Positions 25,710-55,627 of a stretch of DNA of 64,000 nucleotides are shown here, piece by piece. The notes beneath the pieces are model-generated. The model was not told where the DNA came from, ran no database searches, and saw only the letters and a list, made by a program, of their open reading frames with translations. The stretch is taken from NCBI GenBank assembly GCA_009773645.1, contig WSYB01000007.1:62001-126000 (forward strand). The letters run 5' to 3'. Both the position numbers and the translations under genes were made by a program. Every line of letters begins with the position of its first letter. Position 1 is the stretch's first letter. The DNA is from Geobacteraceae bacterium. Its GTDB lineage: Bacteria; Desulfobacterota; Desulfuromonadia; Geobacterales; Geobacteraceae.

Positions 25710-26781
25710 GGCTCGATTGCTCCCCAAAGTTCCAGATGGTGTCCAGCACTTCCCGGACGGTGATCGCCTCCATGCACGCCGGCGTCAGGCGAGGCGACGG
25801 CTCGCATTCCCGGAAGAATTTCTGCCGGCAGGGGGAACAGGAAAACGCCCCATAAATGACGCGGCAGCTTTCCCCCCAGGGCCCGAACTTGACTGGCGAT
25901 TGCGGCCCGAACAGCGCGACCATGGGAATCTTCAACGCCGCCGCCAGGTGCATGATGCCGCTGTCGTTGCAGACAACAAGGGAGCATCTGGCGAGGAGGG
26001 CCATCGATTCGCGCAGGCTTGTAGTCCCAACCGCCATCACCGGCGCCGGGGAAACTCGCGCGATGATTTCCCGGGCAGCCTCCTTGTCCCTGCCGCCGCC
26101 GAAAATGAGGACGCGGTAGCGACCGGTTGTCTGGAGGAGGTTCACCAGTTCGATGAAATTGTCCAGATGCCAGGCACGCGGCGTATTGGCAGTGAACGGG
26201 TGAATTCCGACTACGCTTTCGCCCGGCGCAACGCCCGCTTCCGCCAGGAACCTGCCGGCAAATGCCTCCTCCGCCGGCGAAAGCCATGCTTCGAGGCAGT
26301 CGTCGGTCACGCCGATGCCATCGGCCCGCAGAACGTCGAGGAAATTCTCGACTTCGTGCTGATCGTGCCGGTACGGCACCGTTCTGGTCAAGAGGAAGCT
26401 GCGCCCTTCGGTGGCAAAACCGATCCGTTTCGGGGCGCCGCTCAGCCAGGCAATTATGGCGCTCGATAACGAGCGTTTCAGCACGTACACCTTGTCGAAG
26501 CGCCTCGCCCGCAACTCCTTGATAAAGGCGAGCTTGGCGGACCATGTCCGGTGCGTCCCCCGACTGTCGGCATGGGTGGTAACCGGATCCCAGAACAACA
26601 ACTCATCGACATACGGTATCCCCCTGACCACATCGGCGGAACCGGGGGCCACCACCCATGCGATATGGGCATCGGGCTCGGCCCGGCGCAGGTTCCTGAG
26701 AAACGGCACGGTCAGGATCGTGTCTCCGATAAAGCGATACCGGAGGACTAGAATCCGTTTTTTTGCCGCCTCACTCCTCAC
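25690..26781 (-). CDS. GT9 heptosyltransferase-like protein starting inside a heptamer array
   Basis: 363 residues. ILVLRYRFIGDTILTVPFLRNL and VVCNDSGIMHLAAALKIPMVALFG are the two GT9 motifs, with a CSPCRQKFFRECEPSP tail. The start is a GTG at 26779-26781 belonging to the GTGAGGA repeat array 26771-26803; the first codons (MRSEAA) are repeat-derived and the preceding GAGGAG units can serve as ribosome-binding site. No better start exists downstream before the GT9 core. Confidence 0.82.
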   Translation of the reverse strand: MRSEAAKKRILVLRYRFIGDTILTVPFLRNLRRAEPDAHIAWVVAPGSADVVRGIPYVDELLFWDPVTTHADSRGTHRTWSAKLAFIKELRARRFDKVYVLKRSLSSAIIAWLSGAPKRIGFATEGRSFLLTRTVPYRHDQHEVENFLDVLRADGIGVTDDCLEAWLSPAEEAFAGRFLAEAGVAPGESVVGIHPFTANTPRAWHLDNFIELVNLLQTTGRYRVLIFGGGRDKEAAREIIARVSPAPVMAVGTTSLRESMALLARCSLVVCNDSGIMHLAAALKIPMVALFGPQSPVKFGPWGESCRVIYGAFSCSPCRQKFFRECEPSPRLTPACMEAITVREVLDTIWNFGEQSSHARTEH

Positions 26782-26803
26782 TCCTCACTCCTCACTCCTC
26801 ACC
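26771..26803. repeat. GTGAGGA heptamer array shared by two genes
   Basis: About five TCACTCC units on the plus strand (GTGAGGA on minus). It holds the stop codon of the Trm112-like gene and, 11 bp on, the GTG start of the GT9 gene, so both are tied to the repeat. Confidence 0.88.
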
Positions 26804-28060: not shown

Positions 28061-28135
28061 AGGTGAAATGTGAAATGTGAAGTGTGAATAAACAAAAGGC
28101 TCTACTATTCACCGTTCACCGTTCACCATTCACCG
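28061..28135. repeat. GTGAAAT/GTTCACC heptamer hairpin
   Basis: Three GTGAAAT-like units, a loop, then TTCACCG, TTCACCG, TTCACCA, TTCACCG units, the near-complement. It lies just upstream of lpxK and downstream of waaA. Confidence 0.8.
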
Positions 28136-28165: not shown

Positions 28166-28196
28166 ACTCCTCACTCTTCACTCCTCACTCCTCACC
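28166..28196. repeat. GTGAGGA array at the waaA 3' end
   Basis: Four units read CTCCTCA on the plus strand; the waaA stop region (28178) lies inside it. Confidence 0.75.
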
Positions 28197-29480: not shown

Positions 29481-29555
29481 CGTTCTACGTTCTACGTTCT
29501 ACGTTCTACGTTCAATGGCAAAAAACCTAGAACATAGAACTTAGAACTTAGAACC
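29481..29555. repeat. GTTCTAC heptamer hairpin
   Basis: Four GTTCTAC units, a short loop, then TAGAACA, TAGAACT, TAGAACT, TAGAACC units. The right arm codes the last residues (GSKF) and TAA stop of the acyltransferase gene. Confidence 0.85.
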
Positions 29556-34263: not shown

Positions 34264-34345
34264 AGCGTGAGGGGTAAGGGGTAAGGGGTGAGGGGAAAAG
34301 ACTCTCTCGTCTCCACTCCTCACTCTTCACTCTTCACTCCTCACA
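34264..34345. repeat. GTGAGGG/CACTCTT heptamer hairpin between gnnA and gnnB
   Basis: Units GTGAGGG, GTAAGGG, GTAAGGG, GTGAGGG, a short loop, then CACTCCT, CACTCTT, CACTCTT, CACTCCT, CAC. The gnnA stop TGA is the first base triplet of the last unit. Confidence 0.85.
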
Positions 34346-51908: not shown

Positions 51909-51996
51909 AACCTCATGTTCAAGGTTCGAGGTTCGAGGTTCAAGGTTCGAGGTTGGAATTTTACCGTAGAACGTTGAACATAGAACGTAGAACCGT
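51909..51996. repeat. GTTCGAG and GTAGAAC heptamer arrays
   Basis: Left part: GTTCAAG, GTTCGAG, GTTCGAG, GTTCAAG, GTTCGAG. Right part: GTAGAAC, GTTGAAC, ATAGAAC, GTAGAAC. The two unit types are near complements, so this is a hairpin with mixed unit sequence. It fills the ugd-uxs gap. Confidence 0.82.
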
Positions 51997-54415: not shown

Positions 54416-54427
54416 AAGATGAATACC

Positions 54428-54510
54428 GTTCTACGTTCTATGTTCTACGTTCAAAGTTACACACCCCAAAAACCTAGAACCTCGAACGTAGAACTTAGAA
54501 CTTCTTTCTG
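54428..54510. repeat. GTTCTAC heptamer hairpin between ksgA and tsaD
   Basis: Units GTTCTAC, GTTCTAT, GTTCTAC, a loop, then TAGAACC, TCGAACG, TAGAACT, TAGAACT. The tsaD stop TAA is inside the right arm (TTCTAA). Confidence 0.85.
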
Positions 54511-55527: not shown

Positions 55528-55572
55528 AAATCCGTTCTACGTTGTACGTTCTATGTTCTACGTTCTATGTTG
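55528..55572. repeat. GTTCTAC array upstream of tsaD
   Basis: GTTCTAC, GTTGTAC, GTTCTAT, GTTCTAC, GTTCTAT units in one direction only, next to the phoH terminator and just before the tsaD start. Confidence 0.8.
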
Positions 55573-55599
55573 AAAAAAACGGGGCGTGTACCACGCCCC
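55573..55599 (-). terminator. Rho-independent terminator of the PIN-PhoH gene
   Basis: On the minus strand GGGGCGTG-GTA-CACGCCCC forms an 8-bp GC stem followed by G and seven T. It lies about 30 bp past the phoH stop. Confidence 0.88.
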
Positions 55600-55601
55600 A
55601 T

Positions 55602-55627
55602 TCCGCTTCCCGCTTCCCGCTTCCCGG
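55602..55627. repeat. GGGAAGC heptamer array at the phoH stop
   Basis: Three CGCTTCC units between the terminator and the phoH stop codon. Confidence 0.75.

Follow-up and report, generated by a model that had tools for sequence, protein, structure and literature searches.

A GTGAGGA heptamer array carries the stop codon of a Trm112-like gene and the start codon of the following GT9 gene in a Geobacteraceae bacterium

In the window (the whole stretch of 64,000 nt of Geobacteraceae DNA analysed here), a short Trm112-like gene is followed on the minus strand by a gene of the GT9 (heptosyltransferase) family, and the two meet within a tandem array of the heptamer GTGAGGA. The features of this junction are the following:

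26769-26802, minus strand: GTGAGGA heptamer array of 4.9 copies (Tandem Repeats Finder, period 7, 100% matches)
26968-26792, minus strand: Trm112-like gene, 58 aa, with its final GAG GAG and TGA derived from the array (translation; Pfam Trm112p, E 7e-14)
26794-26792, minus strand: TGA stop codon of the Trm112-like gene, read in the sequence within the array
26792-26788, minus strand: AGGAG, Shine-Dalgarno-like, ending 6 nt 5' of the GTG and sharing the last base of the stop codon
26785-26787, minus strand: TGA from the array, in frame with GT9 and one codon 5' of the GTG, closing the upstream frame
26781-26779, minus strand: GTG start codon of the GT9 gene, within the array, the sole ATG, GTG or TTG in frame before +72
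26781-25690, minus strand: GT9 gene, 363 aa, with residues MRSE encoded by the array (Pfam Glyco_transf_9, E 9.7e-46)

Both the Trm112 stop and the GT9 start are borne by the array. The first gene ends in AAA ATC GGT GAG GAG TGA (IGEE-stop), the second opens with GTG AGG AGT GAG GCG GCA and is immediately preceded, in its own frame, by TGA GGA, and the stop is separated from the GTG by 10 nt, GGAGTGAGGA. A preliminary description of this DNA had held that the final codons and TGA of the Trm112-like gene and the GTG of the GT9 gene come from the array, with Shine-Dalgarno-like purines contributed by neighbouring units; the reading of the two frames and the position of AGGAG bear this out. The array and the closeness of the two codons also stand as described, with the bounds corrected from 26771-26803 to 26769-26802 and the spacing from 11 bp to 10 nt. 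Because the array TGA lies one codon upstream and the next in-frame ATG, GTG or TTG lies 72 nt downstream (codon 25), beyond the segment common to the orthologs, KKRILVLRYRFIGD, the GT9 start is forced among ordinary start codons. The alignment of orthologs that had been proposed as a check on this start agrees with it: of 30 loci, 23, the window among them, have a start codon at -21 or -18 (nucleotides before residue 8), and the other 7 are without one there.

The short stop-to-start distance and the Shine-Dalgarno-like sequence near the start, which together characterize a coupled pair, are both present (gap 10 nt, AGGAG 6 nt before the GTG). Pairing of AGGAG with the host anti-Shine-Dalgarno sequence is a candidate interaction; a 16S 3'-end motif had no match in the source genome at up to one mismatch. 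The RNA of this array is predicted to fold more weakly than shuffled sequences (z +2.04), and its unit contains no GGG, the G-tract of at least three per unit that would be expected of a G-quadruplex-type repeat. At up to one mismatch, GTGAGGAGTGAGGA occurs 14 times in the window, as against a mean of 0.01 in shuffled sequence.

Because 7 is not divisible by 3, units in tandem present TGA and GTG in all frames, and a GTGAGGA array offers one stop and one GTG per frame every 21 nt, in keeping with the earlier claim that the unit carries a GTG, a TGA and Shine-Dalgarno-like purines. Arrays of GTGAAGA, GTGAGGG and GTGAATA likewise have a stop and a GTG in every frame, arrays of TAACTGA and TAGAACG have stops only, and those of GCGGGAA, GGGACCG and GGGAATC have neither. 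When the number of full units at the window junction was varied in silico from 2 to 8, both proteins were unchanged and only the gap moved (-4, 3, 10, 17 ... 38), two units turning the junction into GTGA with an overlap of -4. A single unit preserves the stop, makes the start overlap by 11 and brings additional starts farther upstream into frame; with none, the Trm112 and GT9 frames fuse. Phase variation by frameshift is rejected for the reading frames on this ground, as 2-8 full units leave both proteins as they are.

Geobacter metallireducens belongs to the same bacterial family as the source organism. Its genome contains GGGACCG and other multi-copy tandem heptamers between and within genes, described as putative global regulatory elements (PMC2700814); the unit GGGACCG, which makes up a four-heptamer element there, and the class-3 consensus MTYCTGA differ from GTGAGGA, no stop or start role was seen in that description, and GGGACCG arrays offer neither codon. 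Closer in some respects are the TAACTGA repeats of marine Beggiatoaceae, which occur in tandem at many gene junctions, mostly just 5' of the start, and for which a translational role was proposed (MacGregor 2015, PMC4679880). Like GTGAGGA arrays, they hold stops in three frames, and 13 sets overlap the stop of the upstream gene; unlike them, TAACTGA contains no start codon and little Shine-Dalgarno character and the start lies outside the array, whereas GTGAGGA supplies both GTG and AGGAG as well as the codons for the N-terminal residues of the following protein. The GGGAATC and GGGGA(C/T)T heptamers of Xanthomonas and Nostoc are mostly intergenic, lie nearer the upstream gene, form convergent (inverted) pairs and vary in length at the same gene pairs (Rehm 2015, PMC4692102), and the unit GGGAATC is G-quadruplex-forming with no stop or start, while GTGAGGA has both. 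Repeats of longer sizes, 20-21 and 52 nt, are reported in PMC8161180. Coupled junctions of the NTGA type (PMC12548453) share with the present one a close stop and start and a Shine-Dalgarno sequence, and GTGA is found at three of the four Geotalea-genus yraN junctions considered below; the window junction differs in being expanded into tandem repeats with a gap that can vary, and that review uses the word 'repeat' 0 times. The published record therefore already includes junctional heptamers, their overlap with stops, their inverted pairing and their presence in a Geobacter, and what appears to be new here relative to known heptamer repeats is a start codon within the array as well as a stop. 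No start codon inside a heptamer array was seen in searches of open-access full texts, which take in few subscription papers. The papers cited, on several bacteria, leave the function of heptamers open.

Period 7 dominates the tandem repeats of the source genome (labelled G000; other G numbers are relatives and L numbers are loci). Our own detector found 15 period-7 arrays in the window and none for every other period from 5 to 21; over 464 kb of G000 there were 35, with at most 3 for any other period, and over 864 kb, window included, 69, with at most 8 for any other period from 5 to 24. The window makes up 14% of the 464 kb and holds 15 of those 35 arrays. Genes were called with a small gene finder of our own, compared with no annotation, which missed the Trm112-like gene (added by hand), and by these calls the arrays prefer intergenic sequence: 61 of 75 at least partly cover non-coding sequence, the other 14 falling within called genes, at a called coding fraction of 0.79. 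With a looser score, period-7 arrays occupied 51 of 483 called co-directional junctions in G000 (period 8, 8; five other periods, 1-3). By comparison, eight relatives pooled, their genes called with the G000 tables, had a period-7 array at 1 of 379 junctions, not above other periods, and their 100-kb samples held 0 or 1 such array each, except in G030, where five CAATTGA / ATTGTCA arrays in both orientations crowd about 500 bp (L152, 418-921). GTGA-type heptamer units matched G000 73 times forward and 90 times in reverse, the matches overlapping, and other units there include TAGAACG, CGGGAAG, AACCTCG and more. Several gaps in this genome hold inverted heptamer pairs, in which one arm lies close to the stop of the upstream gene and its partner close to the start of the downstream gene. 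Three consecutive units of the exact pattern GTGARGR were found in 36 of 97 related genomes. GTGARGR arrays number 15 on the plus and 4 on the minus strand in G009 and are all minus (4/4) in G020, counts that pool gene directions; repeat orientation was similarly remarked on for a cyanobacterium (PMC4679880).

We surveyed 45 GTGARRR array segments in G000, counting the paired arrays of L047 as one locus. Several proteins named from here on (MutL, PurM, MtaB, LpxK, KdtA, LPLAT, MsbA, RNase HII and YraN) are ones we take to be such from sequence or gene order, mostly without a family search. At 28 loci the array was in sense orientation between co-directional genes, and it held both a stop and a start at 6 (one weak), a stop only at 10, a start only at 1 and neither at 11; as the 24 stretches beyond the initial ones were picked among 100 listed of 163 matches, 6/28 is not a genome-wide rate. 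The remaining segments lay before a convergent gene (3, of which 2 with a stop), antisense (8), inside called frames (4) or between divergent genes (1). The loci with a start inside the array are:

Window, stop and start: Trm112-like gene to GT9
L176, stop and start: TrmB family to TruD (Pfam TruD downstream)
L177, stop and start: MutL-like to MiaA (Pfam IPPT (MiaA) downstream)
L193, stop and start: VTT-domain protein to SpoU-type methylase (Pfam SpoU_methylase downstream)
L209, stop and start: MnmA to MtaB-like (Pfam UPF0004 and radical SAM downstream)
L047, stop and start, weak: unresolved base, and the downstream frame opens with more repeat-like sequence
L207, start only: PurM-like to PurN (Pfam Formyl_trans_N downstream)

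In all 7, an in-frame TGA precedes the GTG by exactly 6 nt. Another start codon is present in frame nearby at L193 (TTG, +15) and at L222 (ATG, +21). The window junction is hence not unique, a possibility rejected by the five further loci with both codons in G000 (one weak) and by two in G009, where 16 sense arrays divide into 2 with both, 5 with a stop only, 1 with a start only and 8 with neither. At L047 (6634-6828), two adjacent GGTGAAA arrays of 79 and 114 bp are split by the unresolved base, with more heptamer arrays downstream. An apparent tRNA or RNA modification gene is involved at 5 of the 6 G000 loci with both codons (Trm112, TrmB-TruD, MiaA, SpoU methylase, MnmA-MtaB), which may be chance.

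Start codons inside arrays were found only with the GTGA-type unit. Among 57 co-directional arrays in 864 kb, a start lay inside 4 of the 17 in GTGA sense, compared with 0 of the remaining 40 (38 without GTGA and 2 antisense; p = 0.006, Fisher), and a stop inside 8 of 17 versus 5 of 40 (p = 0.012). With the window excluded, the figures were 3/12 versus 0/29 for starts (p = 0.02) and 5/12 versus 4/29 for stops (p = 0.09), the latter not significant and weaker than the excess of starts. The idea that every heptamer array in this genome serves coupling is rejected by the 0/40, and a coding role is not required for arrays, since 11 of the 28 overlap neither codon. The preliminary description had spoken of a ready-made coupling cassette: for the GTGA type the arrangement of stop, Shine-Dalgarno-like purines and start does recur at other gene pairs, in the source genome and in Geotalea-genus genomes, and for heptamer families in general the idea fails. 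This recurrence strengthens the earlier reading of the array as a junction element, which is partly supported.

Orthologous junctions in relatives provide an evolutionary view. At L013, L022, L024 and L026 the GT9 start directly follows the Trm112 stop with no array, and the idea that the array created the close junction is rejected on this basis. Using a low threshold, heptamers of other units (GTGAAAA, GGGACTG, TGAAGRT etc.) were detected at this junction in 7 of 20 relatives; for period 8 the count was 1 of 20, and five further periods gave 0. The clearest series is the RNase HII-YraN junction of four genomes of one genus (Geotalea), at which the stop and a GTG start lie within heptamers throughout while the units differ: GTGAGGG with a gap of 3 in G009, GTGAAGA/GTGAAGG with a gap of -4 in G028, mixed units (not scored as an array) with a gap of -4 in G015, and GTGAGGA with a gap of -4 in G020. 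At MsbA-LPLAT, G009 and G028, which are 94% identical, differ by one heptamer (73 versus 80 nt) with the GTG unchanged and an ATG 21 nt downstream.

MutL and MiaA are adjacent in 28 of 29 relatives and have arrays between them in 5, of the GTCGGTG type in G020 and G025 and of the GTGAAGA type, with the MiaA start inside, in G009, G028 and G015; in G020 (L228) about eight GTCGGTG heptamers stand between the called MutL stop and MiaA. For MnmA-MtaB, adjacent in 19 of 29, arrays occur in 6, and in G025 the GTGAATA array contains the stop and perhaps also a start, this start being uncertain, with a TTG in G025 MtaB where most adjacent relatives have ATG. In most adjacent relatives the MtaB ATG lies 18 nt further downstream, and the G000 start has therefore moved into the array rather than being kept there. 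Together, arrays occupy 11 of 47 of these junctions (5/28 and 6/19; PurM-PurN, with an array in 0 of 29 relatives, is excluded) versus the baseline of 1 in 379, a comparison that pools several genomes and is limited to junctions selected for their arrays in G000.

We consider it reasonably probable (about 0.6) that the array is a close stop/Shine-Dalgarno/start junction expanded in whole heptamers, with the number of units tolerated and GT9 translated by reinitiation after Trm112. An ancestral, closely spaced set of these three elements would have grown by whole heptamers, most simply through replication slippage, the unit joining GTGA, an overlapping start and stop, to purines that would make AGGAG with the next unit. 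The upstream gene would then stop near the 5' edge of the array and the downstream gene start near its 3' edge, gain or loss of units would alter only the gap, in 7-nt steps (-4, 3, 10, 17...), and ribosomes finishing Trm112 would be expected to reinitiate at the GT9 GTG. Tolerance of such expansion would follow from the unit's having both a stop and a start in every frame. The anatomy, the forced start, the recurrence, the differing units at the same junction in relatives, the 7-nt difference between orthologous gaps and the in silico tolerance are seen directly; from them we infer slippage as the mode of growth and a dependence of GT9 translation on that of Trm112. Counting against this model is the gap at the window junction, which is 10 nt and not the -4 overlap given in a review as the commonest spacing (PMC12548453). 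The 11 of 28 arrays that overlap neither codon, the moved MtaB start, the lack of arrays at PurM-PurN in 29 relatives and a stop excess that loses significance once the window is excluded also weigh against it. The cause of the abundance of period 7, including units without a start, lies outside the model.

The same junction could instead have arisen as a neutral heptamer repeat that grew beside the stop and happens to hold the GT9 start, GT9 initiating independently of Trm112. Many heptamer families without a start or Shine-Dalgarno sequence occupy the same junctions in the source genome, the 11 of 28 GTGARRR arrays free of either codon fit this account, and a heptamer excess through slippage was proposed earlier (a 2007 survey of the excess is cited in PMC4692102). 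However, starts occur only in the unit type that has GTG and Shine-Dalgarno-like purines, and all four Geotalea-genus orthologs retain the stop/start pair with differences elsewhere in the unit; both observations are also compatible with neutral growth around a retained start, and we regard independent initiation as unlikely, though a serious competitor. If the repeat served as a target for a trans-acting factor that binds RNA or DNA, its many copies (the 73 forward and 90 reverse matches) and repeated unit spacing would be expected, and S1, Csp or Csr proteins were proposed for TAACTGA repeats (PMC4679880) and factor binding for the heptamers of G. metallireducens (PMC2700814). The unit sequence nevertheless differs at orthologous junctions, which is unexpected for one binding specificity and makes this account improbable. 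Least probable is a GT9 start outside the array, at an unusual codon further downstream: L005 has an ATG 3 nt after residue 8, but no in-frame ATG, GTG or TTG exists from the array GTG to +72 and the 23 of 30 loci place a start codon at -21 or -18.

Expansion of a reinitiation junction may also be extended to a broader proposal, which we offer tentatively and would not ourselves bet on: GTGARRR arrays might be self-preserving, frame-agnostic translation junctions, in which selection keeps GTGA and the Shine-Dalgarno-like purines, slippage rewrites and re-homogenises the rest, and the number of units tunes the reinitiation distance in 7-nt steps. The same Geobacteraceae junctions would on this proposal carry different heptamers because the unit is rewritten around its selected part. 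If true, unrelated housekeeping proteins would share array-encoded ends, RSEE at the C-terminus and MRSEE at the N-terminus. More generally, a single unit that supplies all the elements of a gene junction, whatever the frame, offers a simple reason for harmless growth of such repeats at operon junctions, and it predicts that unit number should alter the stop-start distance only. For annotation, the N- and C-termini of housekeeping proteins (TruD, MiaA, PurN and others) can be repeat-encoded in such genomes.

Other heptamer arrays of the window overlap stop codons and contain no start:

28166-28195, minus strand: GTGAGGA-type array ending the KdtA-like gene (..VRSEE-TGA, TGA at 28178-28180); no start inside
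29481-29554, minus strand: GTTCTAA / TAGAACG heptamers as an inverted pair that occupies the LPLAT-KdtA gap and gives LPLAT its TAA; no start inside
34314-34344, minus strand: GTGAGGA/GTGAAGA array holding the TGA (34341-34343) of the upstream called gene; no start inside

The inverted pair between LPLAT and KdtA is predicted to form a hairpin of -38.4 kcal/mol (z -6.95, strong folding). The two genes are 67 nt apart in the window and overlap by 1 base in 6 of 6 relatives in which both were located, and an array pair was gained at this junction. More multi-unit heptamer arrays lie at 28063-28134, 34270-34344, 51917-51993, 54427-54501 and 55533-55626, several of which form inverted, or nearly inverted, pairs in the gaps that separate co-directional genes.
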